From a virus, in IMG/VR virus record IMGVR_UViG_3300017925_000001, positions 1 to 64,000 of that record: DNA of 64,000 bases; one strand, written 5' to 3'. Positions 23,366 through 53,467 of the stretch are shown here, one piece after another. The position numbers and the translations under genes are program-made. The notes under the pieces are model-generated. The model was not told the origin of the DNA, made no database searches, and saw only the letters and a program-made list of their open reading frames with translations. The number at the start of each line of letters is the position of its first letter. Position 1 is the stretch's first letter.

Positions 23366-23974
23366 ATGATTGTTTATTTGATAACAAACGAAGTGAATGG
23401 AAAACAGTATATAGGTCAGACCGTTCGCAGTTTGCAAGTACGTTGGAAAAAGCACTTGTCTGCTGTGGTTTTGGGCAGTGAGTATTATTTTCACAAAGCC
23501 ATAAGAAAATATGGTGAAGAAAACTTTTCTTTGTTAGTACTCCACATTTGTGAAACCAAAGAAGAGATGGACTTTACCGAAGTGTTCTACATTTCTTTGT
23601 TGGGCACAAAAGCTCCTAAAGGATACAACTCTACCGAGGGTGGAGAAGGAACTGTAGGGCATAAACATACTGAAGAGTCCATTCAGAAAATGAGAAGTTC
23701 TCATAGTGGTCATAGAACCACTGAAGAACACAAAGAAAAGTTACGAAAAGCTTCCGAAGGAGTTCCGAAGTCAAAGGAGCATTGTCGCAGCATTTCTGAA
23801 GGAAGAAAAGGTATAAAATTTTCTTCTGAGCACCGAAAGAATATAAGTTTAGGACACATCAGAAATATTTGCCATCGTGGTCACAGTAGGATTCCTGCTA
23901 ATCTCAACAGAGATGGATCATGTAAACAATGCAAAAGGATTACAGAGCTTAAGAGATTGGGGAGGAGCCTTTGA
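23366..23974 (+). CDS. GIY-YIG homing-type endonuclease with zinc finger
   Basis: 202 residues from the ATG at 23366 (strong GCGGAGG); an earlier in-frame ATG is inside the RNA element and is rejected. MIVYLITNEVNGKQYIGQTV gives the GIY-YIG core, then YFHKAIRKYGEENF and the E in EMDFTEVFYI. Repeated TEEHKEKLRKASEG-type NUMOD3-like segments follow, and the end carries CHRGHSRIPANLNRDGSCKQC, the same finger type as the 3358 protein. It ends inside the start of the next gene. Confidence 0.88.
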   Translation: MIVYLITNEVNGKQYIGQTVRSLQVRWKKHLSAVVLGSEYYFHKAIRKYGEENFSLLVLHICETKEEMDFTEVFYISLLGTKAPKGYNSTEGGEGTVGHKHTEESIQKMRSSHSGHRTTEEHKEKLRKASEGVPKSKEHCRSISEGRKGIKFSSEHRKNISLGHIRNICHRGHSRIPANLNRDGSCKQCKRITELKRLGRSL

Positions 23975-33394: not shown

Positions 33395-34009
33395 ATGGGA
33401 AGAGCAGGAAAATACACAGGTCTCATTGGAAAGAGGTTTGGTCTTCTAGAAGTCAGAGTCTTGTCACGTATTGTGCATACAACTCGGTTTGGGAAGCCAA
33501 TAGGATTTACACGATACTACCTTTGTAAATGTGATTGTGGTGGCTCGATAATTGTTAGAGAAACACATCTAACCGAGAAAAGAAAAGCCAACATACAAAA
33601 AAGTTGTGGATGCTTGGTGAAGGAGCTGCACAAGAGTGCTTCGTGGCACACAAAGTCTCGCAAAGAAGGCACAGCTTTTCGTAGATGCTTGGATCAATAC
33701 AAGGCGAATGCAAGGAATCGTGGATTATCTTGGGAGTTGACCGATGATCAGTTCAGAGAGATCACTACATCTCCGTGTCATTATACCGGAGAGGCTCCAT
33801 CCACGGTGAAAAAGTCTAGGTGCGAAGAGTATGTGCATAATGGCATAGATCGCATAGACAATAATAAAGGTTACATAACAGAAAACTGTGTTCCTTGTTG
33901 TGCAATTATCAACCAGATGAAGGCGGATCTCTCATTGAAGAGATTCTTGGAGCTATGCAAAAAAGTTTCAGAGAGGACACAATGTGAGCAGCCCAACAAT
34001 CAACAGTAA
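33395..34009 (+). CDS. HNH homing-type endonuclease with zinc knuckles
   Basis: 204 residues: GRAGKYTGLIGKRFGLLEVR as an AP2-/NUMOD-like N-terminus, CKCDCGGS and CGCLVKE forming a zinc site, then a helical stretch and GIDRIDNNKGYITENCVPCC which is the HNH-N (H omitted variant) core with asparagines and metal-site residues, and INQMKADLS. Typical of self-mobilising phage HNH enzymes. It overlaps the next gene by 26 nt. Confidence 0.85.
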   Translation: MGRAGKYTGLIGKRFGLLEVRVLSRIVHTTRFGKPIGFTRYYLCKCDCGGSIIVRETHLTEKRKANIQKSCGCLVKELHKSASWHTKSRKEGTAFRRCLDQYKANARNRGLSWELTDDQFREITTSPCHYTGEAPSTVKKSRCEEYVHNGIDRIDNNKGYITENCVPCCAIINQMKADLSLKRFLELCKKVSERTQCEQPNNQQ

Positions 34010-34841
34010 TTTATCCAGTAATGGTGACACAAGTCTCCTCAATATTTGTAATTTGGTTAGGGCTTTAATTAACGACAGCCAGGCCGGTGCCCAGGGTATT
34101 CCGGGCGAAGGACAAGTATTCACAGACAACCCTGCTATCTCCCCTTTCGTTCAGCCTTTTTTGAATTCCGCGATACGAAGTTTATATCGTGAACTAAGAA
34201 ACGTTGGGGACCCTGCGCTTGTGTTTGACAACTACATCATCCCGAATATCACACCCATCAACAGTCCGCTGACCGGCCCAGGCAACCCTGATCCGGCACT
34301 GCAAGTCTATATTGGGCAGAGTGGGTACTTTGATGGCACACAGATTTGGCCAGTGATAGCACTGCCCAACAATTTGATGTATCTTGAGCGTGTGTGGGAG
34401 CGCCAGAGCAACACGAACAACACTTTTGTTCCGATGAGTCAGTCGCAGTTTGGTCTTCCCTCTCGGCCTCAACAGCCTTCTTTCATAGAGTGGGAGTGGA
34501 GAAACTATAACCTGAATATGGTGGGCAGCACACAGACCAACGATCTTCGTCTGCGCTTTTGGGGATCTCTACCAACGTTTTATAGCGCTACACTGGACTT
34601 CTCGTCCACGTACGTTCCCATCATAGACTGCACGGACGCATTGGCGTACAAGATTGCAACAATGTATTGTCGTATGCTGGAATCACCCGGTCTGCCTGAT
34701 CTTGTTGCTGAGGCAAAAGAGCAGATGTTCCAACTGAAGAATGCCGTGGTGCGCAGATCTCAGTCCATTGAATATCAACGTATTCCTTACGGAACAAGTG
34801 CCCGCGACACTAACAATAGATTTTTCGCAAACTGGCAGTAA
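33984..34841 (+). CDS. Candidate head-tail connector (tail tubular A-like), 285 aa
   Basis: GTG start after AGAGGACACA. LLNICNLVRALINDSQAGAQ resembles the N-terminal helix of T7 gp11-like adaptors, and the C-terminal ALAYKIATMYCRMLESPGLP helix fits the same type. Position between capsid and tail genes supports a connector, but similarity is weak. Confidence 0.5.
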   Translation: MSSPTINSNLSSNGDTSLLNICNLVRALINDSQAGAQGIPGEGQVFTDNPAISPFVQPFLNSAIRSLYRELRNVGDPALVFDNYIIPNITPINSPLTGPGNPDPALQVYIGQSGYFDGTQIWPVIALPNNLMYLERVWERQSNTNNTFVPMSQSQFGLPSRPQQPSFIEWEWRNYNLNMVGSTQTNDLRLRFWGSLPTFYSATLDFSSTYVPIIDCTDALAYKIATMYCRMLESPGLPDLVAEAKEQMFQLKNAVVRRSQSIEYQRIPYGTSARDTNNRFFANWQ

Positions 34842-34850
34842 GGAGATCAC

Positions 34851-35150
34851 ATGGCTACACTTTTTCGTGCAGATGGTTGGGTGAAGTCGGTTCTGGGACA
34901 AGCAATCGCCGGTGCTCAGATTTTCATATGTGCTCAACCCGCGGATACCGCTTATGTGCCTCCTGTCCCCCTTGCTCAGATCTACTCTGACCCTGCAGGA
35001 TCTTCCCCTATCACCCAGCCTATCATCAGCGATGGCTTCGGGCACTATAATTGGTATGCAGCCGCAGGAGCGTACACAGTTGTAATTGTCACAGGGGGCA
35101 ACGTTCAGGTCGTATATCAAGATCAGGTGCCCATGGGAGCAACCATATAA
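34851..35150 (+). CDS. Small fibre or baseplate-type protein, 99 aa
   Basis: MATLFRADGWVKSVLGQAIA then QIYSDPAGSSPITQPIISDG and YAAAGAYTVVIVTGGNVQVV: a compact beta domain of the prealbumin-like type. It aligns closely with the first 120 residues of the next protein, so the pair arose by duplication. It is probably a trimeric tail component. Confidence 0.65.
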   Translation: MATLFRADGWVKSVLGQAIAGAQIFICAQPADTAYVPPVPLAQIYSDPAGSSPITQPIISDGFGHYNWYAAAGAYTVVIVTGGNVQVVYQDQVPMGATI

Positions 35151-36394
35151 TGAACAATTTTTATCGCTCAGATGGCTGGGTAAAGACTACGCTCGGACCC
35201 GCAGTATCGGGGGCACAAGTCTATGTGTTATCGCAGCCAGCTAATGTTACTCCTCCTGTTACACCTCCGAGATCAACTCCGGTTCCATTCACCCCAAACC
35301 CTCAGGTGCAAATATACTCAGACGCAGGGTTTACCCCAATCACACAACCTGTCATAACAGATGGCTACGGGCACTACGATTTTTACGTACTCCCAGGATT
35401 GTACACAGTGGCCATTTATTATGGAGGGAAGCTGCAGCAATATTACGTTGACCAGTCGATAGGTAATGTGGGCAGCACGCAGGCAACCCCTGTAGTGCTT
35501 TCGACCAATGGAACGCCCAATTTTAATCAGAGCCTTCTGAACCTTGTGCAGGGCCCGTTGATTACGGTTGTTACAGACAACCTTGGGAATTCCGTGATTA
35601 GCGGAGTATTGCCTCCGACTATGACCAACTTGGTTGGGGGCTTGGTTCCAACACCTCCCAATAGTGCCACGGAATATCTAGATGGAACAGGACATTTCAG
35701 CATACCTCCAAGCGGTTCCTCTGTTCTTCTAGAAACTAACGGTATCCACAACGGAAGCCAGTCTCTACTTAACTTGGTGAATGGTGCAGGGGTATCCATC
35801 ACTCAGGACGGAGCAGGAAACGTTACGGTAGCAGCACCTCCCGTGGTTGCCCCTAGGAATATTTGGACAGGCAACGATTTTTCCTCGACATTGACCTATG
35901 CAGCAAACACTGGGCCCGGTGGAACCAATGGGGAAGTGTTTACTTACCCATTCTATCTCTCGATGGCCACAGTTATTGGACACATATCCCAGCAACAGTA
36001 CGGCGGTCCATATGGGGGTGGAGCCCCGACTTACCCAGCAGGGTGCTACACATGCGCGATCTACACTCTTGATGGTACAACCAAACTGGTTGACGCAGGC
36101 CCCGCAGCTTTCAGTGCTCTCTCTAGTGGATTTCAGACTAAAGCTATCACCCCTGTCACGCTTCCAGCAGGAGCATACAGATTCGCGTTTTCTTTCGCAG
36201 ATGCTACTACGCAAGTGGTTTATGGGGTGAGTATATCTGATTCACCTTCTATTTGGAACGTAAACTCAACAGGCGTTCCTTTGGTTGCCTCTTGTAGCGC
36301 TATTATGGGGCCTGGGGGTGCTATGCCCGCAGCACTCGGAGCATTTACCGCAAACACGAACACAGGCTGGCCCAGCTTCTTGCTGGAGCCCTAA
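35150..36394 (+). CDS. Tail fibre or baseplate protein, 414 aa
   Basis: The ATG at 35150 overlaps the previous stop. Domain 1 (about 1-115) repeats the 34851 fold (FYRSDGWVKTTLGPAVSGAQ). The rest has repeated QSLLNLV-x(2)-G and G/T/S-rich beta sequences typical of tail fibre shafts, and a C-terminal TYPAGCYTCAIYTLDGTTKL domain. No enzymatic motif. Confidence 0.6.
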   Translation: MNNFYRSDGWVKTTLGPAVSGAQVYVLSQPANVTPPVTPPRSTPVPFTPNPQVQIYSDAGFTPITQPVITDGYGHYDFYVLPGLYTVAIYYGGKLQQYYVDQSIGNVGSTQATPVVLSTNGTPNFNQSLLNLVQGPLITVVTDNLGNSVISGVLPPTMTNLVGGLVPTPPNSATEYLDGTGHFSIPPSGSSVLLETNGIHNGSQSLLNLVNGAGVSITQDGAGNVTVAAPPVVAPRNIWTGNDFSSTLTYAANTGPGGTNGEVFTYPFYLSMATVIGHISQQQYGGPYGGGAPTYPAGCYTCAIYTLDGTTKLVDAGPAAFSALSSGFQTKAITPVTLPAGAYRFAFSFADATTQVVYGVSISDSPSIWNVNSTGVPLVASCSAIMGPGGAMPAALGAFTANTNTGWPSFLLEP

Positions 36395-36416: not shown

Positions 36417-39400
36417 GTGAATTTTCTCAAACGACTCAAAAAGCTTTTATTGCCCTTTGTCCTGCTTACGGCAACCCTAGGGTTTTCCCAAGCAGTGCAG
36501 GGAAATGGTGTGCAGCCAGGAGAAGCACAGAATAGCGAAGTGTCTCTTGATACGCTAAACATTCATTTGGATATTCCTTTGGTGAACAAGAAGGGCATTG
36601 GGTTGCCAACAGCACTTTCCTTGAGCTACAACAGTAATCTGTGGCTCGGAGGCACTTTAACTCACCCAGGAGCTTTTAGGCCAAGTTCTGCTGTGACTCC
36701 CGGTTGGAATACTCCTGTTATTATTGGAGGTTCTTTGCAGTATGAAGTCTTTGACTGCGGAGTTCCGGTGCCACCTCCTGGGCAAGGCAATTATAAGGGA
36801 TACAAGTACACAACCTACACAGACGTGTCTGGTGCGGTGCATCCTTTTACAGAACCCGGAGGGGTACTTTCTCCTGCCGAAGGACTGTGCGCATTGTCTT
36901 CAACAGTAGTGTCAGTAGACGGCAGCGGATTCACGTATAATTTAACCACTCCAGGTCTCAATACGAGCACCGTAGTTGACCCTTCGGGAACAGTACTACA
37001 CCCGATAGGTATCACAACAGACTTAAGTAGCAGCATTGTGGATGTGAATGGAAACGCTGTGTCGTACAGTAGCTCTACTGGGGTGCTTACAGACACTTTT
37101 GGAGTAGCCGAAGTCACAGTTACAGGAACTCCTGCTTCTGGAACGGTTACATATACGTATCCTATATCAACAGGAACAGCAAGCGTTAATGTGCTGTATA
37201 CAGGGTACCGATTAGGAACTTATTTTCAATGTGGAGCGAACGCTCCCGATTGGAGCAGTGACCAGACTTTCTACTTGCCTACTAAGGTGAATCTGCCTGA
37301 TGGGTCTAACTACGCCATGACATATGAGAGTCAAGTGTCAGGTACGGTAACAGGACGACTGGCTTCTATAGTATATCCTAATGGGGCAGCAGTTTCTTAC
37401 GCATATTCAGGACCGAACAATGGAGTAAACTGCGGTGATGGATCAACTGCTGGTTTGACAAAAATTGTCTCGGGGGATGCGACATACTCGTTTACAAGAA
37501 ACACATCTACTTGGCTCACTACTACTGAGATTGATGCTGTAGGGATTGCTAACAACACTGCTGTATATACCTTTGTACAACAGCCAGTTGTTATTACCTT
37601 CGGTTCTTTTTTCATGACAAAGGAAGTAGAGAATCAAGGCTCTAGCACGCCTTTGGTTACCAAGACATATTGCTATCAAGGAACAAGTTGTCCGCAAGCT
37701 TCTGTGGCCCCTAGTTTTCCCATCACTCAAACTGATGTGTATACTACGTTAGCCGGGATGTCCACATCTTCTAGGGTATCCAAAACATTCGACGCATATC
37801 AGAATGTGACCAAAACTGCCTTGTATGACTTCGGGGCTTCTACTCCTACCCGTCAAACGGTGTCTGGACCTTTTGGGTATACCTGGAATGGCAATACTTC
37901 TTCCCCTACTTGCACCACTGCAATAGGCAGTGGGGTCAACGACGTTCCATGCCAAGTACAACTTGAGAATGGAGCTGGAAGCCAGCTTAGAAATGCTTAT
38001 TTCAAATATGACACATCTTCGAACCCTGGCAGTTTGTTAGAATCTGCAGTTCTTACAGGCGGATCTTCTTATTTGATCAGCGCTTATACCTACAACACGA
38101 ATGGTGTACCGTCTACAGTAACAGACGCAGCTGGAAACATTACTAATTTTGCATACAGTTCTAGTGTTTGTAAAAGTGGCAGACCAACATCAATAACAGT
38201 ATGGCCCGTGGCAGGAACTACATCCCTTGTCACTTCATTTCTTTATGATTCTGGGTGCAAAGGGGCTGTAACAACAAAGATTACGGACCCAAATTCAAAA
38301 CCTGTCACCTTGGGATACTCTGACCCATTTTGGAGGCTAACTACCTACACAGACGAGCTGGGGAATACAACAAACAATGCATATCCAATGCAGTCTCCGT
38401 ACACAAGCATAGAAACTACTCTAAATTTTTCTTCCTCAACTGTGGATGTGTATCAGCAATCGTACCCAAATTTAGGGAAAGCTTTAGCACAACAGTTGGA
38501 GTCTCCGACATCTTCTAATTGGGACACTGTTTTATCTGCTTACACATGGAATAGCACTGGTATTTTCAACTCTTCTTCGTTGCCTGTTGTAGGTACGAAA
38601 ACTACTGTTCCTACAAACGTTGTTAATACAACTGTAACCCATGATGCCTTAGGTCGTACATTGGTTACAACGGACGGTGGAGGAGGTACAGTTACCACTG
38701 CGTATACTGGACAGGATGTTTTAAACACCCTGGGTCCGGCACCGGCAGGGGAAGTAGTGAAGCAGGTACAGAAGGAGTATGATGGTCTTGGGCAATTGCT
38801 TTCTACTTGCGAAATATCCAATTCTTCTCAGCCTTTGGCTAGTGCCAAAAACTGTGGACAAGTAAATGGCGGGTATACTGGGTATTTAACCAAATATACA
38901 TACAATGCCGAAGGTACCTTGGCATCAGTGGCTAAGTCATCTAGCGCTGCTACGCAGACACATTCATATACGTATGATAAACTTGGCAGAGTTTTAACTG
39001 AGACACTTCCAGAGAGTGGTACTGTTACCAACACTTATGACGGTACTTGTACAGTCCCTACCAGCGGGTGTGGTCAACTTGTTAGCTCCATAGACGCCAA
39101 CGGCAACACCTCTAGTTATGTCTATGATGGGTTAAATAGGGTAACATCCATTACATACAGCGGACCAAACGCAGACGGCTATAATCAATATTTTGTGTAC
39201 GACAAAGCTGTGGTTGATGGCACAGCAATGGTCAATGCAAAAGGAAGGCTGGCCGAAGCGTACACAGCAACTACAGCTACAGCCAGTAAATATGTGGACG
39301 AAGGTTTTGGGTACACAGCTCGTGGGGAAAGCTCAGACGTGTACGAACTCACACCAAATTTGGGTGGGTACAAGCATACTAAGACTTCCTATTATGCCAA

Positions 39401-41285
39401 CGGTGTGCTTAATTCTATCAGCGGCATACCTGGGGGACCTTGGACTTACAGTGTTGACGGCAAAGGCCGCTTATCTGATTCTACTAACGGTTCCTCTACA
39501 ATACTGACAGCAGGAATAACATACAACGCTGCAGACCAACCTCTAGTTGTTACCTATGGTTCTGGGGATTATGATACTTACACCTATGATCCTCTAACCA
39601 CTCGCATGACTGGGTATGCTTTTACTATAGGGTCTACTCCAGCAACTGATTCTGGAACTTTGATATGGAATGCTAATGGAACCCTTAGGTCGTTAAGTAT
39701 AGCAGATGGGGTGAACAGTGGGGGTTCTCAAACGTGCGCCTATGGAGGAGCTACAGCGCCCGGATATGATTCTATAGGCAGACTTTTATCTGTATCATGT
39801 GGTTATGGTGCTCCTGGCTCTAAGACTCTGACCTATTTGTGGGGTCAAAGTTTCAGTTATGACGTTTTTAACAATCTCACCAAGACGGTACCTGCTGCCC
39901 CTTCTGGGTCGTATGTGTATACGCCCACGACTTGGAACCCGGGGTACAGCTCTAGCACCAATAGGCCGAACGGTACTACATCTGATGCCAATGGTAATTT
40001 GTTGACAGACACCTTTCACACCTACACTTGGAACCAGAATAACAAGATAACAGGCGTGACAGACGCTGGTATATCCGTCAAATATGATGCTTTTGGAAAT
40101 GCAGTAGAGTACTATAATGGTACAACGTATACACAGCCCATTTTAAGTCCTATGGGAAACCTTGGTTTGTGGAGCAAAACTGCTCTGAGCAAGTATAGAG
40201 TTCCACTCCCAGGAGGATCAGAACTAGTTTCTGGCACTGATATATGGCATAGGGACTGGTTGGGGTCGGTGCGTCTTGCATCTAGTCTTACCGGAAGAAA
40301 TTCCGTTAAGGATACAGCGTTTGCTCCTTATGGAGAAACTTACGCCACCTTTGGAAGCGCTACAGATGATATAAACTTCACAGGGGATAATCAGGATTTG
40401 GTGGCAGGAATATTTGATACACCTAACAGAGAGTTGAATCCTGATCAAGGTCGTTGGCTTTCACCAGACCCTTCCAGTTCTGGTTGGAATGCGTACGCGT
40501 ATAGTGATAATCCTTTAGGAGAAGTTGATCCAACTGGTCTGAGTATTCTTGATTGGCTCTTTGGTTCAAAAAACTGTTCCTCATCGACAGGTAAAAGCTG
40601 TAGGTGGAATAACGCCTGGAATGGGGATAATCTCCAATATGCAGGTGCGGGAATATGGCTTGCTCCCGGTAGTGGTACTGTGGGAATTAACTGCGGAGTT
40701 ATCACCGGGTGTGGTCATGGCCTTCATCAAATTACTATAAAGTGGTCAGAGACAAATGGGGGTGCTGGAGACAGTTGGGATAGAAGCTTTATTTCTGAAT
40801 CTGTGGGTGAATTTGAGTGGGATTTGGTTCGTGAAGGGATTTTTTTAGGTGCCGCTAGAGGCACTCCCAGCGGTGATGGAGGTTTAGTAAATGGATCAGT
40901 AGCAATGGCAAGGAACTGGCTTAAACAGCCCACAAAATATGGCACTGTTGCAACCGACATAAACGGTAATCATTGGATTCAATTGGCTATAGAAGATATA
41001 GAAAAAGGAAACCAGTGGGCTCTTGAAAGTCAGATGGTAGTAGACGCTTGGGTTAATGGTAACAAAAACCCAGGTTATTACATTGTGAAACTCACATCTG
41101 AAAACTACATGAATAGGTTGGATGCCTTAGATGCAGAGTATAACCTAAACAAATTTGGGAGAGGTATGCTTGAGGCGGCTCACGCTTTTCCAACTACCCC
41201 AAGACTGAGTATGTATGGAAATATGCCAAAAGATCTAAGGCCAAATATGGAAGACATGTTCAAATACAAGAGAGAGGGGGATTAA
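36417..41285 (+). CDS. Secreted Rhs/YD-repeat protein with variable C-terminal domain
   Basis: 1622 residues, GTG start with AAGGAG. An N-terminal basic plus hydrophobic segment (FLKRLKKLLLPFVLLTATLG) is a signal peptide. A large series of YD-like repeats (YTYDKLGR, YVYDGLNRVTS, YDSIGRLLSV, YDAFGNAVEYYN) ends in the RHS-associated core: DWLGSVRLASSLTGR, YGETYATFG, and EVDPTGL at about 1369-1375. About 247 residues of unrelated sequence follow, the position of the toxin in bacterial Rhs polymorphic toxins. I do not recognise a known toxin fold there. No dedicated immunity gene is evident immediately downstream. Confidence 0.85.
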   Translation: MNFLKRLKKLLLPFVLLTATLGFSQAVQGNGVQPGEAQNSEVSLDTLNIHLDIPLVNKKGIGLPTALSLSYNSNLWLGGTLTHPGAFRPSSAVTPGWNTPVIIGGSLQYEVFDCGVPVPPPGQGNYKGYKYTTYTDVSGAVHPFTEPGGVLSPAEGLCALSSTVVSVDGSGFTYNLTTPGLNTSTVVDPSGTVLHPIGITTDLSSSIVDVNGNAVSYSSSTGVLTDTFGVAEVTVTGTPASGTVTYTYPISTGTASVNVLYTGYRLGTYFQCGANAPDWSSDQTFYLPTKVNLPDGSNYAMTYESQVSGTVTGRLASIVYPNGAAVSYAYSGPNNGVNCGDGSTAGLTKIVSGDATYSFTRNTSTWLTTTEIDAVGIANNTAVYTFVQQPVVITFGSFFMTKEVENQGSSTPLVTKTYCYQGTSCPQASVAPSFPITQTDVYTTLAGMSTSSRVSKTFDAYQNVTKTALYDFGASTPTRQTVSGPFGYTWNGNTSSPTCTTAIGSGVNDVPCQVQLENGAGSQLRNAYFKYDTSSNPGSLLESAVLTGGSSYLISAYTYNTNGVPSTVTDAAGNITNFAYSSSVCKSGRPTSITVWPVAGTTSLVTSFLYDSGCKGAVTTKITDPNSKPVTLGYSDPFWRLTTYTDELGNTTNNAYPMQSPYTSIETTLNFSSSTVDVYQQSYPNLGKALAQQLESPTSSNWDTVLSAYTWNSTGIFNSSSLPVVGTKTTVPTNVVNTTVTHDALGRTLVTTDGGGGTVTTAYTGQDVLNTLGPAPAGEVVKQVQKEYDGLGQLLSTCEISNSSQPLASAKNCGQVNGGYTGYLTKYTYNAEGTLASVAKSSSAATQTHSYTYDKLGRVLTETLPESGTVTNTYDGTCTVPTSGCGQLVSSIDANGNTSSYVYDGLNRVTSITYSGPNADGYNQYFVYDKAVVDGTAMVNAKGRLAEAYTATTATASKYVDEGFGYTARGESSDVYELTPNLGGYKHTKTSYYANGVLNSISGIPGGPWTYSVDGKGRLSDSTNGSSTILTAGITYNAADQPLVVTYGSGDYDTYTYDPLTTRMTGYAFTIGSTPATDSGTLIWNANGTLRSLSIADGVNSGGSQTCAYGGATAPGYDSIGRLLSVSCGYGAPGSKTLTYLWGQSFSYDVFNNLTKTVPAAPSGSYVYTPTTWNPGYSSSTNRPNGTTSDANGNLLTDTFHTYTWNQNNKITGVTDAGISVKYDAFGNAVEYYNGTTYTQPILSPMGNLGLWSKTALSKYRVPLPGGSELVSGTDIWHRDWLGSVRLASSLTGRNSVKDTAFAPYGETYATFGSATDDINFTGDNQDLVAGIFDTPNRELNPDQGRWLSPDPSSSGWNAYAYSDNPLGEVDPTGLSILDWLFGSKNCSSSTGKSCRWNNAWNGDNLQYAGAGIWLAPGSGTVGINCGVITGCGHGLHQITIKWSETNGGAGDSWDRSFISESVGEFEWDLVREGIFLGAARGTPSGDGGLVNGSVAMARNWLKQPTKYGTVATDINGNHWIQLAIEDIEKGNQWALESQMVVDAWVNGNKNPGYYIVKLTSENYMNRLDALDAEYNLNKFGRGMLEAAHAFPTTPRLSMYGNMPKDLRPNMEDMFKYKREGD

Positions 41286-41293: not shown

Positions 41294-41530
41294 ATGTCCT
41301 TTACACAGAAGTTCGACAGTTTTTGCAGCGGTTTCAAGGACTACCATGTTCCTTCCTACCTCTTCATGTTCTCGACTGGAGCCATTCTACAATGGCTCCA
41401 TCATCTTGATCCTACTTTCGTGACCTTTACCGCAGCTATTCTGGCAGCTATTACAGGGCACCAGTTTAGTCCTGCCGCAAAAGATCAAAACGATAACAAT
41501 CCTACACCACCTACTCAACCTACCGCATAG
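41294..41530 (+). CDS. Small membrane protein, holin-like, 78 aa
   Basis: VPSYLFMFSTGAILQWLHHL and FVTFTAAILAAITGHQF suggest one or two membrane segments, with a proline-rich cytoplasmic tail. It may be a holin or a membrane anchor. It also occupies the slot an Rhs immunity gene would, so that role cannot be excluded. Confidence 0.5.
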   Translation: MSFTQKFDSFCSGFKDYHVPSYLFMFSTGAILQWLHHLDPTFVTFTAAILAAITGHQFSPAAKDQNDNNPTPPTQPTA

Positions 41531-41539: not shown

Positions 41540-42118
41540 ATGCCAATTACATATTTGTATCCTGAGAACCCTGTCAGTCCAAACTGTGGGTTTGCCTTGT
41601 GGGCCATGGCAGTCAACATGGCCAACAATTTTCTAAAAATTGACACCATCCTTGGCGGTGATGCAATCGCGCAGTCGTTTAATGGGCGTACGGGAGACGT
41701 TTTCCCAGATACCAACGACTACAGCTTCAACCAAATATCTGGTACGTTGGGTTTGGGACAGATACCTGCAGATGGTACTGATCAGACTTTTCTTCGAGGC
41801 GATGGCAGCTGGTCTGTTCCCTTGCGTATGACAACTACGCAAGCCGGGGATTATCAGCCTCTCAACACGGATGAAACTATTTTCTGCAACGGTTCTGGAC
41901 CCCAAACCATAACTCTTTTGACTGACGATACAATTTATGTAGGCAAAAGGTATTATGTAAAACTCATCGGAACCGGCTCGGCTACAGTCTTGACTTCCAG
42001 CACAGAGATGAGCGGTTCCATACCACTGACTACAGCTCCTGGTGCGTCTACTGTGGGCGGGCATCTCAATATACAGTGGGATGGCTACAATTGGTGGCTG
42101 TTGAGCTACACTGCCTAG
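41540..42118 (+). CDS. Fibre protein with shared N-terminal anchor module, 192 aa
   Basis: Residues 1-45 (YLYPENPVSPNCGFALWAMA, NMANNFLKIDTILG) form a module also present at the N-terminus of the 49366 and 54036 products. The rest (DQTFLRGDGSWSVPL, then beta-rich) is a typical tail fibre tip. The shared module likely binds a common partner on the virion. Confidence 0.65.
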   Translation: MPITYLYPENPVSPNCGFALWAMAVNMANNFLKIDTILGGDAIAQSFNGRTGDVFPDTNDYSFNQISGTLGLGQIPADGTDQTFLRGDGSWSVPLRMTTTQAGDYQPLNTDETIFCNGSGPQTITLLTDDTIYVGKRYYVKLIGTGSATVLTSSTEMSGSIPLTTAPGASTVGGHLNIQWDGYNWWLLSYTA

Positions 42119-42127: not shown

Positions 42128-42388
42128 ATGCGAGAACGCTTGTTTGCCTTTATACGCAGTACATTTTCTGAGCCAGATGGAACAGGCTCAGCGAGCAGAG
42201 TTTTAGCGGGATGCACCGTGGCGTCATGTTTGATCTGGGTTTCCTTCATAGTTTTTACGAAACACATCATCCCAGATCTCGGCGGGGCATCCCTGTTCGT
42301 TACGAGCGGTTTTTCAGGGTACGGCGTAAATAGGCTTTCCCGGGCATTTGGAGAAGATCATGACAAGGATCATCAGCAGACTAGCTAG
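42128..42388 (+). CDS. Holin-like membrane protein, 86 aa
   Basis: SEPDGTGSASRVLAGCTVAS and SCLIWVSFIVFTKHIIPDLG give one or two membrane helices with a short charged C-terminus. This form recalls phage holin or lysis-regulator proteins that begin with a GTGSAxRVLA stretch. It overlaps the next gene by 29 nt. Confidence 0.55.
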   Translation: MRERLFAFIRSTFSEPDGTGSASRVLAGCTVASCLIWVSFIVFTKHIIPDLGGASLFVTSGFSGYGVNRLSRAFGEDHDKDHQQTS

Positions 42389-43079
42389 GAAGGCCCCCAG
42401 CTTGCCCCCTGTATCCACCTTGCCTACCATCGTGGTCCCTAGCCGCTACCCAGACATCTTTGAGGCTTGCCGCAGTTCCCTAGCTCAGTTTGCCCCTAGC
42501 GCCCCCAAGATTCTGGTGCGTGACGGAGATGCCATAGGGCAACCAGAGGGCTGGAAGGTCATCCAGGGGCCTCCAGGGGACTTCTGCTATTCGCATAATG
42601 TGAACCTTGGAATCCAAGCATGCTCTGGAGACGTTCTGCTGTGTAATGATGATGTAAAATTTACACAGTCAGGTACTTTGGAGTCTTTGGCGGGCATTTT
42701 TGCCCTTCGGCCTGACGTTGGAATCCTGTCTCCTAGTGTGGATGGCGTGGCGAACGGGGTTTCTGCTAGGGAAGCCATTCAGGAAACCAAGGGGTACCTG
42801 AGCTTTGTCTGTGTATTGATCCGAAGGGCCGTGATCGACAAAGTAGGGCTGTTGGATGAACGCTACACAGCCTACGGATCTGAAGACGTTGACATGTGCC
42901 GTAGAGCACAGATGGCAGGCTTTACGCTTGCCACTACTTCCTTAGTTACAGTAGAGCACAAGCACGCAAGTTCTTCATACAAACGAGAAGAAGGCTTGGA
43001 GCAGAAGCGGGCAGAGTCGGCACGAATCTACCTTGAAAAGTGGGGAAAAGGAACACCGGGGCATTATGCCGACGAATAG
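42360..43079 (+). CDS. Glycosyltransferase, GT2-like
   Basis: 239 residues from the ATG at 42360 behind TTTGGAGA. PTIVVPSRYPDIFEACRSSL then GDVLLCNDDVKF (DxD equivalent) and GILSPSV...LDERYTAYGSEDVDMCRRAQ with the ED motif of GT-A folds. Transfers sugar from a nucleotide donor. It opens a cluster of glycosyl enzymes inside the tail region. Confidence 0.8.
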   Translation: MTRIISRLARKAPSLPPVSTLPTIVVPSRYPDIFEACRSSLAQFAPSAPKILVRDGDAIGQPEGWKVIQGPPGDFCYSHNVNLGIQACSGDVLLCNDDVKFTQSGTLESLAGIFALRPDVGILSPSVDGVANGVSAREAIQETKGYLSFVCVLIRRAVIDKVGLLDERYTAYGSEDVDMCRRAQMAGFTLATTSLVTVEHKHASSSYKREEGLEQKRAESARIYLEKWGKGTPGHYADE

Positions 43080-44034
43080 AAGATTTTTGCGGAGACCTGC
43101 AGGGTTAAAACCTCAAGTTCCCGTGGCGACATTTCCAGATTGGTGGGCAACGCAGCAACACGCCCTGCATGAAGGTTTTGCATATTGCATTACGAACTGC
43201 TCAAATCCAAAGCATGTGCAAGAGTTAATTGAAGACCTTGTGCGTAAAACCACTGCCCCCTACGAAATTGTGCTTTGGGTTGAGTCTTTGGCTGCTGATT
43301 TTGAACGATTCTTGGCACACCAGATTTGGGCAGGAGTCCCAATCTTTGTAGCCGAGCGCAGCCTCCCGAAAAGCACTATTATTCGAGAACTCTTCCCGTT
43401 TTGCCAACGCAGCTGGGTTATGCAGATTGATTGCGACACTCCCAAAATGGTGGAAGGTTACAACCCCAAGGTTTCTATAATTATTCCCACGTACAAGAGG
43501 CAGCATGTGCTTCTGCGTACGATCAAATCTATTTTGGAACAGTCGTACTCAAATTGGGAACTGATCATAGTGAACAATGAGGTAGGGGGAGTACTTCCTG
43601 GGCTGCCCAATGACTCCCGAATATTTGTCTACAACCACCATGGGGAAGCCAACGCATGCTATGCCAGAAATATGGGCGTAGGGCATGCCACGGGTGACCT
43701 AGTAAACTTCTTTGATGACGATGACGAGATGCTGCCGGGATACCTAGAGAAGATGGCAGCACCTTTCTCAGACCCCAAGGTTATGGTAGTGCGTTGTGGC
43801 ATGCTTTGTACCTTCGGGGCCTGTGACTTTAGTTATTCCACGCAGGAAGCGTGGTTGCGTAGGGCGTACGCCACACCGACGTGGCAAAAAGGATCTCTTG
43901 TTCACGATCAGGTTTATTATCGGAGCATGATTGAAAGAAATGGTTGGAAGAAAGAGAATATCCTTCAGCTTGGTGAAGTCCTTGTGAAGGCATATACGGA
44001 ACCCAGCGGAGGTATCAGGGCTGGTGGGTATTAG
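43066..44034 (+). CDS. Glycosyltransferase with two GT-A-like halves
   Basis: 322 residues from the ATG at 43066. The first 110 residues resemble a partial GT-A fold (AYCITNCSNPKHVQELIEDL, YEIVLWVE). The second is a full GT2: VSIIIPTYKRQHVLLRTIKS, WELIIVNNE, NMGVGHATGDLVNFFDDDDE with the acidic cation site at about 214-218. It may build one linkage of a tail-associated or host glycan. Confidence 0.8.
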   Translation: MPTNRRFLRRPAGLKPQVPVATFPDWWATQQHALHEGFAYCITNCSNPKHVQELIEDLVRKTTAPYEIVLWVESLAADFERFLAHQIWAGVPIFVAERSLPKSTIIRELFPFCQRSWVMQIDCDTPKMVEGYNPKVSIIIPTYKRQHVLLRTIKSILEQSYSNWELIIVNNEVGGVLPGLPNDSRIFVYNHHGEANACYARNMGVGHATGDLVNFFDDDDEMLPGYLEKMAAPFSDPKVMVVRCGMLCTFGACDFSYSTQEAWLRRAYATPTWQKGSLVHDQVYYRSMIERNGWKKENILQLGEVLVKAYTEPSGGIRAGGY

Positions 44035-44043
44035 GAGGACTCA

Positions 44044-44901
44044 GTGAAAATCTACGTGCTCGGTGGCTCAGGGATGCTTGGAAGAGCGTTTATACAGCAT
44101 TTTGGTGAGCGTCATGACTTGGGTTTGCCTGGGGTGACTAATCCCCGTGTGGATGTTACTAACTTTGAAGAAGTGGCCAGAGATATCCGAAGGTTTGATC
44201 CTTGCTCCATTGTAAATTTCGCAGCTATCTGCGATATGGAAAAATGTGAAAAGGACCCCTCTTTGGCTTTGAAAGTTCATGCCCTAGGTTCGGCTAACGT
44301 AGCGCTTATAGCAAATCGGGCGAACGCAGAGTACATGTATATCAGCAGCGCTTGCGCATTTGATGGTAAAAAACAGTGGTATTCAGATACAGATGCAACC
44401 TCTCCCATATCAGTGTACGGCAAGACGAAGATGTTTGGAGAAGAGATCGCAAGGTCCATCCCAAAGCATTACGTGGTGCGTACCGAATGGTGTTTCGGAG
44501 GAGGACCAAAGCACGACACAAAATTTATTGGAAAGCTCTATCGTCAAATAGCCTCGGGGCAATCAGAGATCAGCGCAGTGCAAGACAAATATGGCTCCCT
44601 TTCTTATTTGCCCGACTTCTGCAAAGGAGTGGAGAAGCTTCTGGAGAGTAGGCAGTACGGTACCTACCACATCACCTGTGAAGGCTCAGCATCACGGTAC
44701 GAGGTAGCCAAAGAGTTTGTACGTTTGCTGGGTGTGGGTGTTCAAGTGAAAGCTGTGGATTCCTCCGCATTTGCTGGGGATTACTTTGCTCCCAGACCTG
44801 TTAGTGAGAGATTGGTGAACAGCTTGGTACCGGGGTTCTCAGCTAGAACGTGGCAGGAATGCCTCGCTGAGTACAGTAAGGAATTTTTGCATGGATGCTA
44901 A
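44044..44901 (+). CDS. dTDP-4-dehydrorhamnose reductase-like NAD(P)-dependent SDR
   Basis: 285 residues from GTG behind GGAGGACTCA. MKIYVLGGSGMLGRAFIQHF holds the nucleotide-binding G-x2-G-x2-G; ISSACAFDG and SVYGKTKMFGEEIA provide the catalytic Y-x3-K; LPDFCKGVEKLLE and YHITCEG follow. This fold (RfbD type) makes the last step in dTDP-L-rhamnose or reduces a related nucleotide sugar. Two further glycosyltransferases follow. Confidence 0.8.
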   Translation: MKIYVLGGSGMLGRAFIQHFGERHDLGLPGVTNPRVDVTNFEEVARDIRRFDPCSIVNFAAICDMEKCEKDPSLALKVHALGSANVALIANRANAEYMYISSACAFDGKKQWYSDTDATSPISVYGKTKMFGEEIARSIPKHYVVRTEWCFGGGPKHDTKFIGKLYRQIASGQSEISAVQDKYGSLSYLPDFCKGVEKLLESRQYGTYHITCEGSASRYEVAKEFVRLLGVGVQVKAVDSSAFAGDYFAPRPVSERLVNSLVPGFSARTWQECLAEYSKEFLHGC

Positions 44902-45790
44902 GGACGACCTAATTCTCGGGGTTTTCGCTAACTATTCGTTCTCGTGGTTGGAAGCCTACATGGTATCCATTACCCGCAGCAAGTTCAGAGGACGAAAAGT
45001 TCTCATTGTGTGGAACATCGAATCAGAGGTTAGAAAAAAGCTAATCGAGTATGGTTTTGAACTTGTAGAAGTTCCACCACAAACAAAAAACGAAGTGGTG
45101 TTTGCTGCTGATTTCTTTCGTGTTCGGGACAGACTAGCCTATGAGTTTTTGAAGGAACACTACCAAGAATTTCGGTTCGTTTTTTGGATGGACATACGCG
45201 ACCTTGTGTTTCAGTCAGACCCTTCCGTGTGGATGGAGAAGAACCTGGGATCGAGCAGGATTGTTGTGGCTTCTGAGTGCATACGTATTAAGGACGAGCA
45301 ATGTAACGACGGGTGGGTAAAAGCAATTTTTGATCCTGCTACGTACCTTCGCATTAGAGAGCATGAAGTTCTCAATGCAGGAACTTTTGCAGGTTATGCA
45401 GAAAACATGCGGGATGTGTTCTTTCGGCTTTGCGAGATTGCTGACCACACTACAGAGGTGGCTGAACAGGCCGCTTTGAACTTTGTACTGCGGGAACCTG
45501 AGTTTGAAAGCGTCACGAAGATCCCTAGGATGTCCGAAGGCTTCGCTGCGGTTGGTTATGGTTTCGGCAATGAGTTGGAGCATGTGTGGACGGATCAAGT
45601 CCCGGTACTGAATAAAGAAACGGGCATGCTTTACCCTCAAGGTAAGATCGAACCATTCGCCATTGTACATCAGTATGATAGACATCCACAGTGGAAGCCT
45701 GTTATATCCTCACACTACACTGTGGGCAAGGTTCCTCCACCCCCAAGACCACTAAGGAATCCAAGGTTTTCAAGGAGATTACCAAGATGA
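44891..45790 (+). CDS. Glycosyltransferase-like protein, 299 aa
   Basis: GVFANYSFSWLEAYMVSITR and RKVLIVWNIESEVRK, then FVFWMDIRDLVFQSDPSVWM with D-I-R-D as the metal-binding element, VLNAGTFAGYAENM and AEQAALNFVL. The order matches GT8- or GT-A-like transferases. It overlaps both neighbours. Confidence 0.7.
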   Translation: MDAKDDLILGVFANYSFSWLEAYMVSITRSKFRGRKVLIVWNIESEVRKKLIEYGFELVEVPPQTKNEVVFAADFFRVRDRLAYEFLKEHYQEFRFVFWMDIRDLVFQSDPSVWMEKNLGSSRIVVASECIRIKDEQCNDGWVKAIFDPATYLRIREHEVLNAGTFAGYAENMRDVFFRLCEIADHTTEVAEQAALNFVLREPEFESVTKIPRMSEGFAAVGYGFGNELEHVWTDQVPVLNKETGMLYPQGKIEPFAIVHQYDRHPQWKPVISSHYTVGKVPPPPRPLRNPRFSRRLPR

Positions 45791-46488
45791 ACAAAACTCT
45801 TCTGGCCTTGATTACCTGTCACACACGACAGGCATACGCACAAGCACAGCGCGAGACGTGGATACCGAAGATCCCTGCAGGGTTGGACTACAAGTTTTTC
45901 CTGGGGCCTTCTGAGCGTACTCCTGGGCCAGATGAAGTGTTTCTGGAGTGTGATGATTCGTATTCAGGCCTACCCTCCAAAATAAGGGCGGCATGTCGTT
46001 GGGTATATGACCAAGGCTACGAGTTTTTGGCTAAAATTGACGACGATGTTCTTTTGAAAGCAAGCTCATTCTTAGGTTCTGGTTTTCAAAACTACGACTT
46101 CTCAGGGCATACCAATAATGATAACACAGCTGTGAAGGTTCCGTGGGGTTTTTTATACTTGCTCAGTCGGAAGTCCATGGAGATTATGGCGAACGCTCAG
46201 CTTCCACAAGGGTTCAATGATGAAGCTTGGTGCGCGAATACATTGGCTGCACATGGTATACTTCTACACCATGAGCCACGTTATGTGTTGCATCGTGGTA
46301 GACGTTCTGATTTTATACCAACTTTCAAGCGTCCCCTAAGGGCACCTACGAGGCCACACCTTATGGACGAGGAAACCCCTAGGAATGCCATAGCAACGTG
46401 CATCTTCCTTCACTGGCATGGTTACCACAATACACCAGATTCAGTGAACATCAGAGAAATGTACAAAGTGTTCAAGGAAACCCAATGA
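45787..46488 (+). CDS. GT31-type galactosyl-like transferase
   Basis: 233 residues, from the ATG at 45787 (AAGGAG at 14 nt, longer frame rejected because it lies within the preceding gene). LLALITCHTRQAYAQAQRET with R-x-TW, then YKFFLGPSERTPG, ECDDSYSGLPSKIRAACRWV, and FLAKIDDDVLL (DDD). These match beta-1,3-galactosyltransferase-like phage and bacterial enzymes. Overlaps neighbours by 4 nt on each side. Confidence 0.75.
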   Translation: MNKTLLALITCHTRQAYAQAQRETWIPKIPAGLDYKFFLGPSERTPGPDEVFLECDDSYSGLPSKIRAACRWVYDQGYEFLAKIDDDVLLKASSFLGSGFQNYDFSGHTNNDNTAVKVPWGFLYLLSRKSMEIMANAQLPQGFNDEAWCANTLAAHGILLHHEPRYVLHRGRRSDFIPTFKRPLRAPTRPHLMDEETPRNAIATCIFLHWHGYHNTPDSVNIREMYKVFKETQ

Positions 46489-46640
46489 CACGCGTAGAAA
46501 TACTCAGGGCAGCTGCGAAGAAATTTGAAGACTCTCGGGCCGTTCCAAAGGTTTACCCTAAAGTAGACACAGTAGGGATCAGGAAGTTCTGGGAAGGCCG
46601 AAGTAAGCTTGTTTTGGAATGGCGTAAGAAAAACAAATAG
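46485..46640 (+). CDS. Hypothetical small protein, 51 aa
   Basis: MTRVEILRAAAKKFEDSRAV, ATGA-coupled to the transferase. Helical and basic (WEGRSKLVLEWRKKNK). It is probably a companion of the glycosyl cluster. Confidence 0.6.
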   Translation: MTRVEILRAAAKKFEDSRAVPKVYPKVDTVGIRKFWEGRSKLVLEWRKKNK

Positions 46641-46741
46641 GTTCTTTCTGCTACTGCAGAAGAAGATGTAAACTTAAACTGTTAAAGCATCCGATAGTTA
46701 GGACAAGAAACCTAACGAGGCGGGGAGAAAAGAGAACAAAT

Positions 46742-47116
46742 ATGTCAAGTGTAGTGAGTCAAGCGATTCTAGATCCTGCCACAACTTTGTTATTCCCAGA
46801 TATTACAGGCGGCTCGATAGGCGCTTACTTCAATGTAACGTTTACCGCAGGAACTTATACTTCCGGTGGCGTACCTGTAGGCCTTATGGCTTGGGCAGAC
46901 CAGCAAACAATAGATTTTCATTGTTTCTTAATCTGTGCCTTTTACAATGAAAGTTATGATGGAGCATCTCCTGTCTATACGTTCCGTTATATTCCCACAA
47001 CTGACACCGTGGTTATTTATTCTAGCGGAGTTGAACTTGCCAGCGGGGCTGCAGTTGCCATTACGGATTCCGTGATTGCTCACGCAGTCTTCAACCGCAC
47101 TACGACTCTTGGATAA
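46742..47116 (+). CDS. Beta-rich structural protein, 124 aa
   Basis: MSSVVSQAILDPATTLLFPD, with G/T/Y/S-rich alternation and no charged clusters. It may be a fibre or decoration domain. Start behind GGGGAG. The 100-nt spacer before it contains hairpins TTCTGC/GCAGAA and GTTAGG/CCTAAC. Confidence 0.5.
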   Translation: MSSVVSQAILDPATTLLFPDITGGSIGAYFNVTFTAGTYTSGGVPVGLMAWADQQTIDFHCFLICAFYNESYDGASPVYTFRYIPTTDTVVIYSSGVELASGAAVAITDSVIAHAVFNRTTTLG

Positions 47117-47126
47117 GGAGAAAATC

Positions 47127-47363
47127 ATGGCAGCAACAATGGGTAAAGATATATTCGCCAAGGACTTCTCAGTAGGTACTGTAGTTTACCTGCGATGCAA
47201 AGTCCTTTCTTTCACTGGCGCGGGCCCTGTGTGGGCAGGTGCCGGGGATACTGTCACTGTGCAGGTAGAGAGTAACGGAAATACTGGGGAAATCACTCCT
47301 GGTCCAATAGTTACTGTGTCTCCTGTGCAATGTAGAGCTACAGGCGCAACATACCAAAGTTAG
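47127..47363 (+). CDS. Small beta protein, 78 aa
   Basis: From the ATG at 47127 (AAGGAG): MAATMGKDIFAKDFSVGTVV, GDTVTVQVESNGNTGEITPG. Compact beta-sandwich-like. Paired with the preceding gene, probably a virion component. Confidence 0.55.
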   Translation: MAATMGKDIFAKDFSVGTVVYLRCKVLSFTGAGPVWAGAGDTVTVQVESNGNTGEITPGPIVTVSPVQCRATGATYQS

Positions 47364-47384
47364 GACCAGTAACACGAAGATGCA

Positions 47385-47421
47385 GCGGAGATCAGTCCGC
47401 AAGCCCCGTGGGAATCGGGGC
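47385..47421 (+). other. Two adjacent GC hairpins upstream of a glycosyltransferase
   Basis: GCGGA/TCCGC (47385-47389 with 47396-47400) and GCCCCG/CGGGGC (47403-47408 with 47416-47421) are separated by AA. They resemble the P1-P2 layout of the pseudoknot leaders, but no loop-to-Shine-Dalgarno pairing is found, so this may be a regulatory leader or a weak terminator. Confidence 0.4.
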
Positions 47422-47493
47422 ACCTCTTAGGCTCTGTCTAGAAATGTGGAGCACTTATTTATTGTAAGGAACGGGCAAAGAAAGACTCCCTCA

Positions 47494-48543
47494 ATGAAAA
47501 AGATTCACCTTGCTTTAGTATTTAAAGACTTTGCGTATTGGATACGTTCTAGTTGTGTTGGATTGCACGTTGCTGGTTTTACTACTGCAGAAGTTCTGCG
47601 GGAGAAGGGTGTGGATGTATCAGTATTTCCTGTGCGACACAATGTTGACTTAGTTCATGCTATAGACAAGTATAATGAAACACATGATGAGCCATTGACC
47701 CATGTGGTTATCTCTGCTCCATGGCTAAGCGCACATGATCTTAAAACCATCATAAAGAATTGGCCATGTACAAAATTTATTATTCTTTCTCATTCTAATG
47801 TAGGGTTTCTTCAAGCCGATCCAAATGGTGTTGAGTTATTGCGCGCTTACCTTGCTCTTGCGACAAGACACACGAATCTTCAGGTGGGAGGCAATTCACA
47901 TCGTTTTGTAGAATGGTTAGGATATGCTTATGCTTCAGAAGTTATATGGTTGCCTAATTTATATCCGTTTGAGACATGTGAAACCAAAAAATGGAAAGAT
48001 GGAGTAATAAAGATTGGTGCCTTCGGTGCAGTTCGGCCTGAAAAGAATTTTATGACAGCAGCAGCAGCAGCAGTTGCAATTCATAAAAATCTTGGTGTTC
48101 CAGTTGAACTTCACATGTTGTCGGGAGGCGAAGGGGACCAAGGTCGTGTCGCACCAGCAATTGAGCAGATGTGCTTTGGTATTGAAGGTATATCCTTGAT
48201 TAGGCACGAATGGGAACCGTGGGATAAATTCATAGAGACCGTTGGTGAAATGGATTTGCTATTACAGCTTTCTTATACTGAGTCATTTAACATGGTGACG
48301 GCGGACGGTATTTCACGTGGAGTTCCTTCTGTAGTGTCCTCCGCTATAACGTGGGCACCAGAATGTTGGAAAGTAGATGCAGACGATGTAATGCAGGCTG
48401 CGGAGGTGGGCATCACTTTACTAACTGATGAAATGGTGCGACGAAAGGGTTTTGATGCATTGAGGGACCATAACGAAATGGCTATTAAAGAATGGCTTAA
48501 ATGGCTTGGAATTGCTAAGAAACCTTGGTACAAGTTTTGGTAA
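47494..48543 (+). CDS. Glycosyltransferase, GT4-like
   Basis: 349 residues from the ATG at 47494; a GTG at 47446 is also possible and neither has a good ribosome-binding site. KIHLALVFKDFAYWIRSSCV, then the C-terminal Rossmann half IKIGAFGAVRPEKNFMTAAA, VELHMLSGGEGDQG, and LLLQLSYTESFNMVTADGIS with the ESFNMVTADG motif of GT-B retaining enzymes. It probably adds sugars to a phage or host glycan. Confidence 0.75.
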   Translation: MKKIHLALVFKDFAYWIRSSCVGLHVAGFTTAEVLREKGVDVSVFPVRHNVDLVHAIDKYNETHDEPLTHVVISAPWLSAHDLKTIIKNWPCTKFIILSHSNVGFLQADPNGVELLRAYLALATRHTNLQVGGNSHRFVEWLGYAYASEVIWLPNLYPFETCETKKWKDGVIKIGAFGAVRPEKNFMTAAAAAVAIHKNLGVPVELHMLSGGEGDQGRVAPAIEQMCFGIEGISLIRHEWEPWDKFIETVGEMDLLLQLSYTESFNMVTADGISRGVPSVVSSAITWAPECWKVDADDVMQAAEVGITLLTDEMVRRKGFDALRDHNEMAIKEWLKWLGIAKKPWYKFW

Positions 48544-51737: not shown

Positions 51738-52733
51738 ATGATTAACAGAAATTTTGTGCGTTTAGTTTTGGCTGAAGGTGGAACAATCAAACCGTTGATG
51801 ATTTCTTCTGTTGACTCTGGTGGGCTTGGGCTCTGTAACCCGTCAGTGTTTGTTGATCACGGTGAAATTTGGTTGATACTCAGAAATGTCAGTTACACGA
51901 TATACCACTGCGAAAATGAGAAGAGATTCAATAGTCGGTATGGTCCGCTGAGTTATCTCAATCCAGAGCATGACCAGCATTTGCGGACTACGAATTTTCT
52001 TTGTAAGTTGACACCAAGTCTCGAAATAGAACGATACTGGAAAATCGACACTAGCCATCTCGACAAAGAACCGCTCTGGGAGTTTACGGGTTTGGAAGAC
52101 GCTCGTCTCGTACGTTGGGATGGGCATCTGTACGGTATCGGAGTTCGGCGTGATACAACAACCAACGGTCAGGGACGGATGGAGTTTTCGGAACTCGAAT
52201 TGGTCAACGACACTGTAAAGGAAATCGGGCGATATAGAATTGAACATCCTACGGCTCCTGAATGGTATTGTGAAAAGAATTGGATGCCAGTGTTGGACAT
52301 GCCTTACCATTTCATCCAGTGGACAAATCCTGCGGTATTGGTTAAAGCTAACCTTACGACTTTGAAGTCCTATCGGGCGATTGAGGTCAATGAGTCTGGC
52401 AAGATTGAAGGCATGCCATTTCTCCGTGGGGGTTCCCAAGTAATCCCTTGGCATAACTATTACATCTGTATTGTCCACGACTGTGACCTGACCAAGAATC
52501 TCATAGGACAAAAAGATGCTACTTACATGCATCGGTTTGTGGTCTATGACCGGAATTGGAATATAGTTAGGATTGGCGACCAGTTCTCTTTCATGGATGG
52601 GGAAATCGAATTCTGTTGTGGACTCGCAGAATATGAGAAGGACTTCTTGATGACGTTCGGTTTTCAAGATAATAGTGCTTGGATTTTGAAAATTCCATCA
52701 TCTATAATTCCCAAATTGATCGGAGTAGCATGA
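51738..52733 (+). CDS. GH43/GH130-like beta-propeller protein
   Basis: 331 residues. FTGLEDARLVRWDGHLYGIG with acidic residues in a repeating blade, VFVDHGEIWLILRNVSYTIY, NWMPVLDMPYHFIQWTNPAV and INPAV-like blade ends suggest a five-bladed propeller of the GH130 or GH43 kind that cleaves or phosphorolyses glycans. It is translated from the pseudoknot leader and overlaps the downstream GIY-YIG gene by 4 nt. Confidence 0.6.
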   Translation: MINRNFVRLVLAEGGTIKPLMISSVDSGGLGLCNPSVFVDHGEIWLILRNVSYTIYHCENEKRFNSRYGPLSYLNPEHDQHLRTTNFLCKLTPSLEIERYWKIDTSHLDKEPLWEFTGLEDARLVRWDGHLYGIGVRRDTTTNGQGRMEFSELELVNDTVKEIGRYRIEHPTAPEWYCEKNWMPVLDMPYHFIQWTNPAVLVKANLTTLKSYRAIEVNESGKIEGMPFLRGGSQVIPWHNYYICIVHDCDLTKNLIGQKDATYMHRFVVYDRNWNIVRIGDQFSFMDGEIEFCCGLAEYEKDFLMTFGFQDNSAWILKIPSSIIPKLIGVA

Positions 52734-53467
52734 CCTTCTATACTTACACGTATCTTCGTGCAGACGGAACTCCGTATTATATCGGTAAAGGGAAAGACTA
52801 TCGTGCGTTCAAGAATGGGGGTCGCCCATGCAAGAAACCGATTTACCATTCTCGTATTCTAATCCAATATTGGAAGTCTGAAGAAAAAGCGTTTGAAATG
52901 GAAGTCTGGTGGATCAATTTTTGGGGACGTAAGGATAACGGAACAGGTATTCTTAGAAATTTATCTGATGGAGGCGCAGGCAAGGCGGGATTTATACCTG
53001 ACCCTGAACAGGGGCGCAAACACAGCAAATTTCTGAAAGACAAATTTGCATCAGGAGAGATGGGACCTCCCGGCGCTCAGTCTATAGAGGCGAGAAAAAA
53101 ATTAAGTACATCGCTGAGGGCGGGACATGCCTCTGGGGAAATAGTTACTTACAACAAAGGAATCCATGCTACTGATGAGCAAAAGGCAAAATGGTGGACG
53201 CCAGAACGGAGAGCCGCTCAAGCCGAACGGTGTCGTAAAATGGCAATGGAAGTTATTTTTACTCCTGAGCGTAGAGCTGCTTTAGCCGCTGCCGCTGCTA
53301 AAAGATTTAAGGGAATTCCTCAATCCGAAGAACAGAAAACCCGAGCTAGAGAAGGTTGGAAAAAAGCTTGGACTCCAGAACGTAAAGCCGCTCGATCTGA
53401 GAGGGCAAAAGCGCAGGGATTTGGAACTATTATTCATCCATCAGTTCGGAGGAAAGATGTTTCCTGA
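52730..53467 (+). CDS. GIY-YIG endonuclease
   Basis: 245 residues from the ATG at 52730 (ATGA overlap with the hydrolase stop). FYTYTYLRADGTPYYIGKGK is the GIY-YIG core, then EEKAFEMEVWWINFWGRKDN and a C-terminal series of TPERRAAQAER segments of NUMOD3-like type. It differs from the 17874 and 60940 enzymes in lacking the C-terminal zinc finger. It overlaps the next gene by 11 nt. Confidence 0.85.
   Translation: MTFYTYTYLRADGTPYYIGKGKDYRAFKNGGRPCKKPIYHSRILIQYWKSEEKAFEMEVWWINFWGRKDNGTGILRNLSDGGAGKAGFIPDPEQGRKHSKFLKDKFASGEMGPPGAQSIEARKKLSTSLRAGHASGEIVTYNKGIHATDEQKAKWWTPERRAAQAERCRKMAMEVIFTPERRAALAAAAAKRFKGIPQSEEQKTRAREGWKKAWTPERKAARSERAKAQGFGTIIHPSVRRKDVS

Follow-up and report, generated by a model that had tools for sequence, protein, structure and literature searches.

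Polymorphic toxins of the Rhs type usually, though not always, have a cognate immunity gene beside the sequence encoding their variable C-terminal domain (CTD). Several described systems share features with the phage gene analysed here. Sec-exported Rhs/WapA proteins cleave themselves and kill bacteria (PMC12704120), Teneurin-like toxins with immunity genes are known (PMC13018210) and in Tse15 two aspartates are essential for self-cleavage of the toxin (PMC11461821). In phages, polymorphic toxins are known and so far best described as the MuF proteins of temperate phages (PMC5576092).

The window, by which we mean the whole stretch of 64,000 nucleotides analysed, belongs to a 109,724-b IMG/VR record of a tailed phage carrying terminase, family A DNA polymerase, ribonucleotide reductase, tail fibre and glycan genes; the record is classed as linear and may be incomplete. 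The ribosome-binding site of its Rhs gene (Table 1) lies approximately 10 nt upstream of the GTG start codon, and the N-terminus of the product, MNFLKRLKKLLLPFVLLTATLGFSQA, is basic and then hydrophobic as in a typical Sec signal peptide when judged by hydropathy and inspection. Signal-like N-termini were also recognised by eye in the Rhs proteins of the viral contigs L003, L061, L067 and L083, in L061 and L067 starting from an internal ATG of the open reading frame. RHS repeats were found in three stretches (PF05593, E 1.1e-14) along with YD repeats (TIGR01643, E 6.8e-14) and an Rhs-associated core at residues 1303-1375 (TIGR03696, E 3e-13, above cut-off), which is closed at L1375 by the motif EVDPTGL and followed by a CTD of 247 aa. 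The earlier note had described this open reading frame, its signal-peptide-like start, its repeats, the end of its core and its unmatched C-terminus, and all were confirmed.

Table 1 Features of the Rhs locus in the window and of candidate toxin-immunity pairs in two other viral contigs
Feature	Position	Strand	Remarks
Left boundary, tail-fibre-like protein	35153..36394	+	Kept in relatives without Rhs; in-frame part of ORF 35051-36394
Rhs-family protein	36417..41285	+	1622 aa, GTG start, AAGGAG ribosome-binding site
Signal-peptide-like N-terminus, residues 1-26	36417..36494	+	Basic n-region, then hydrophobic stretch
RHS/YD-repeat shell (predicted) and Rhs-associated core, residues 27-1375	36495..40541	+	Conserved with L003/L002, L061, L067
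Candidate aspartyl autoprotease / cleavage region	40467..40541	+	DPSSSGWNAYAYSDNPLGEVDPTGL; predicted cut after L1375
Variable CTD, residues 1376-1622	40542..41285	+	Without known relatives; candidate toxin domain
78-aa protein, two hydrophobic stretches	41294..41530	+	Putatively holin-like; co-conserved with Rhs core in L003/L002 despite different CTDs
192-aa fibre-like protein	41540..42118	+	Homologue directly 5' of Rhs in L003; 60% identity over 144 aa
Right boundary, 86-aa small membrane-like protein	42128..42388	+	At place of relatives' 62-aa small proteins
L003 candidate pair	L003:5923-6801 and L003:6851-7075		Same orientation
L067 candidate pair	L067:6414-11528 (CTD end) and L067:11525-11758 (-)		Convergent

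In its predicted signal peptide, RHS shell and variable CTD the protein resembles both the Rhs/WapA toxins and the chromosomal Rhs proteins of Terriglobales, however it differs from these in being phage-encoded and part of a phage-specific clade, in having no adjacent immunity gene and in having no cell-wall anchor domain recognised by Pfam. It is like the T6SS Rhs effectors RhsA (7q97), Tse5 and Tse15 in having two aspartates at the end of the core and a DPxGL-like site, and its core is a distant sequence match to the solved 7q97 and Tse5, but a predicted signal peptide stands in place of the PAAR or VgrG domain and RHS_repeat was the only Pfam family matched. No Pfam match was obtained to an SpvB domain following the signal peptide, a feature of the TcdB/TcaC type. 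The YD-repeat protein (Z) of APSE, which is also phage-encoded, matches residues 835-1374 at ~24% and in APSE-3 is followed by a holin gene; it is however very distant, comes from a phage of an insect symbiont and has no detected CTD similarity. The MuF toxins share phage residence and a variable CTD (PMC5576092), but are placed in the phage head together with the portal, whereas the window protein has a signal-peptide-like start, no MuF domain in our domain searches and no integrase found in its record.

The end of the core contains two aspartates, D1351 and D1371, that are invariant in four phage Rhs proteins and may be the equivalents of the two essential residues of Tse15, which would point to aspartyl self-cleavage in the window protein. 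Their spacing is 20 as against 22 in the published consensus, the GG of which is absent. An AlphaFold model of residues 430-1622 built on four alignment rows had a mean pLDDT of 32.0 and was uninformative on the shell fold, as was a model of the CTD, the check asked for in the earlier note, on the structure of that domain (residues 1376-1622, mean pLDDT 33.6).

Architecture and evolution both give good support to the reading of this protein as a polymorphic toxin. A related Rhs gene is present on L003, an 18.8-kb viral contig, and on L002, a 5.6-kb fragment 99.7% identical to it over the shared part. The cores of the window and L003 proteins are ~54% identical overall, with 62% identity over the last ~940 residues (window compared with L002). 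Identity is ~67% up to residue 1375 and from there ~18%, the level of a forced alignment, and BLAST detects no similarity between the two CTDs. At the DNA level the two are alike again, at 80%, starting 6 nt upstream of the ATG of the gene 3' of Rhs. L003 represents a different type of phage: its terminase matches phrog_38 and that of the window phrog_2, with no match between the two. The L003 Rhs protein has ~300 additional N-terminal residues. These comparisons support a swap of the CTD between phages exactly at residue 1375, the organisation of a polymorphic toxin, and together with the differing CTDs of 20 bacterial relatives they bear out the phage-encoded toxin architecture that the earlier note had proposed.

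The window CTD has no family match in Pfam, PHROGs or NCBIfam and no convincing homologue among phages, plasmids, IMG/VR and PDB sequences, or in 396 genomes of the phylum and 397 of the order; because there is no homologue, no activity can be assigned to it. Two weak matches were read as chance, one to the tail-tip J-like protein 23gd (E 0.0048 over 70 residues) and one to a 2758-aa carboxypeptidase-regulatory-like repeat protein. The 247 codons of the CTD contain no stop and their codon adaptation index equals that of the core (0.828).

Immediately 3' of the Rhs gene, after 8 nt, the 78-aa gene is 85% identical in protein and 80% in DNA to its L003/L002 counterpart. Its conservation beside a different CTD in L003 shows that it goes with the core rather than with the CTD, and having been kept beside unrelated CTDs it was rejected as an immunity gene. 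An apparent extension of its homology into the 3' end of Rhs was an alignment artefact. In L003 the homologue of the 192-aa gene likewise stands before Rhs, so that the three genes resemble a common cassette in a changed order. There is no CTD-specific gene in the neighbourhood of the window CTD, and the earlier remark that no obvious immunity gene is present holds in this sense; its being odd for a toxin is underlined by the sister phage protein of L003, which has a linked candidate. There the CTD and the gene of the 78-aa type are separated by a 74-aa gene. In L067, with an Rhs core of only 34% identity, the CTD is homologous to that of L003 over its last ~190 residues (28%, E 5e-18) and a 77-aa homologue (39%) of the 74-aa gene abuts Rhs on the opposite strand. 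The 74/77-aa gene follows the CTD across divergent cores and so behaves as an immunity gene would, a pattern that replaced our reading of it as a general phage gene and makes it, with the CTDs of L003 and L067, a candidate for a new toxin-immunity family. In the integrase-bearing phage L061 a 203-aa membrane-like protein (L061:9408-10019) overlaps the end of the Rhs gene and is possibly the immunity protein of the L061 CTD.

In order to place the gene among bacterial relatives we relied on profile searches, as scans of genomes and viruses with the single window protein found little. A core profile search of genomes gave a Terriglobales MAG as its sole match; with a profile built on the end of the core, 254 of 397 Terriglobales genomes gave matches, often in ORFs of ~1600-1700 aa. 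The phage host probably belongs to this bacterial group. At the 20 bacterial loci examined the core ends are 38-45% identical to the window and the CTDs, of 26-261 aa (mostly 176-261), are nearly all unrelated to one another, none resembling that of the window. In a tree of 25 core ends the window sequence groups with that of L003 in a clade (100/100) on a stem of 0.64, with L061 placed weakly beside it (86/44). The tree neither shows nor rules out a single origin of all phage Rhs sequences. With a phage clade on a long stem, and the closest sampled bacterial cores at ~45%, a recent capture from a sampled host lineage, which the earlier note had entertained, is not supported. A protein built like the swappable-tip toxins of bacterial competition, with a tip not met elsewhere and no protective gene beside it, suggests that phages maintain a lineage of this bacterial weapon for themselves. 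One bacterial Rhs protein of the same family (L020, G150) has a CTD that by eye is like a peptidoglycan hydrolase, glucosaminidase-like.

The Rhs gene lies 3' of the terminase and structural genes, in a variable region made up of tail-fibre-like and glycan genes, so that its earlier placement inside the tail module was roughly right. This position among fibre-like genes speaks for an alternative in which the protein is attached to the tail, either as an adhesin or fibre or as an effector to be ejected, and in which its CTD targets the infected cell or the envelope of that cell. In L003, Rhs comes after a fibre-like gene whose end it overlaps, and the additional N-terminal residues of its product might bind glycans. 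Two syntenic relatives, G404 (108 kb) and G402 (26 kb), nevertheless keep the fibre-like genes of window positions 33984-36394 and have no Rhs there: a 62-aa small protein comes immediately after these genes, with glycan genes behind it, and in the window the Rhs, 78-aa and 192-aa block occupies the same place. The window's 86-aa protein and the relatives' 62-aa proteins are not similar by BLAST. A terminase search returned 26 related contigs, most too short to reach the Rhs position, and none contained an Rhs match. With no Rhs between the conserved flanks of G404 and G402, the gene is cargo and not a conserved part of the virion, which tells against the virion fibre of the earlier note. A Sec signal would moreover route the protein to the periplasm, away from cytoplasmic tail assembly, and the Rhs genes of three relatives lie beside integrase or endolysin instead. 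We regard a virion-associated role as unlikely.

Our preferred reading, to which we give a probability of about 55%, is that the window encodes a polymorphic toxin of the Rhs type which is exported, cleaves itself and is accessory cargo of the phage; from the precedents of Tse15, WapA, Teneurin-like and MuF toxins we infer such a toxin, released at lysis. Synthesised during infection, the protein would cross the inner membrane by way of its Sec signal, the CTD would be enclosed in a shell folded from the RHS repeats, and aspartyl self-cleavage involving D1351 and D1371 would free residues 1376-1622 inside that shell. A large Sec-exported Rhs protein in a Gram-negative host would still have to cross the outer membrane, for which lysis, perhaps aided by the linked 78-aa holin-like protein, is the proposed solution. 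The released package may then harm other bacteria related to the host. Of this reading the sequence itself shows the architecture, the exchange of the CTD as a module, the residence in a phage, the accessory status and the absence of a neighbouring CTD-specific gene, and the steps of export, shell folding, cleavage, toxicity, target and ecological role are inferred.

Integrases raise another explanation, that the phage or its ancestors were temperate and that Rhs arms the lysogen against competitors, a role that has been proposed for MuF toxins. The three further viral contigs with related Rhs cores, L061, L067 and L083, each have an integrase, which adjoins Rhs in two of these three more distant phages. 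L061 has terminase, portal, Rhs and integrase within 12 kb, one end of the L067 contig bears Rhs, the 77-aa gene and integrase, and in L083 tail genes and an endolysin are near Rhs and the record contains an integrase. No tyrosine or serine recombinase (PF00589/PF00239) was found however in the window record, the L003 record or that of the 108-kb relative, in searches whose controls gave matches, the L003 record being a fragment and the other two perhaps incomplete. Nor is there a gene beside the window CTD able to protect a lysogen, and scans for promoters, terminators and repeats returned nothing above expectation or useful, with no promoter-like excess around the Rhs gene. Conversion of a lysogen is on this evidence an improbable account of the window gene, on a par with a place on the virion.

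Less probable again is that the exported CTD acts on the envelope of the infected cell itself, for instance in lysis or in shutting out other phages, where immunity would be unneeded. The missing immunity gene, the linked protein with two hydrophobic segments, four cysteines in the CTD that would suit an oxidising periplasm and the endolysin near the L083 Rhs are all in keeping with it, but the CTD matches no lysin or protease and the linked candidate immunity gene of the sister phage protein points to use between cells. That Rhs is a captured passenger whose CTD lost its toxic activity or never had one would fit the lack of a CTD homologue and of an immunity gene, but is similarly improbable given an intact frame of 1622 codons, a good ribosome-binding site, phage-like codon use and a core maintained in two unrelated phage types.

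The exported, self-cleaving toxin can be extended, tentatively and with distinctly less confidence, to a general picture in which integrase-less phages maintain their own clade of Sec-exported Rhs toxins and exchange the tips as a cassette between unrelated phages. Such a tip might need no immunity gene as the phage kills its host anyway, making the toxin a one-way weapon used at lysis against neighbouring cells or competing lysogens. If true, a phage clade of Rhs proteins with signal peptides, held in common as a cassette by phages whose terminases are unrelated, and in some phages without detectable integrase, would extend the idea of phage polymorphic toxins to exported toxins released at lysis. 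The locus also yields a CTD of no known family and, on L003 and L067, a candidate toxin-immunity family that is directly testable.

Beside the tail fibres, positions 42348-48543 of the window hold a run of glycosyltransferase-like and RmlD/epimerase genes whose content varies among relatives. Four window ORFs (17874-18575, 52679-53467, 60940-61608 and 23324-23974) match ORFs of L003 at 34-55% identity, and those matched at L003:10393-10998 and L003:13161-13754 appear by eye to be homing-endonuclease-like, which suggests that genes of this kind are common to the window phage and the unrelated L003.
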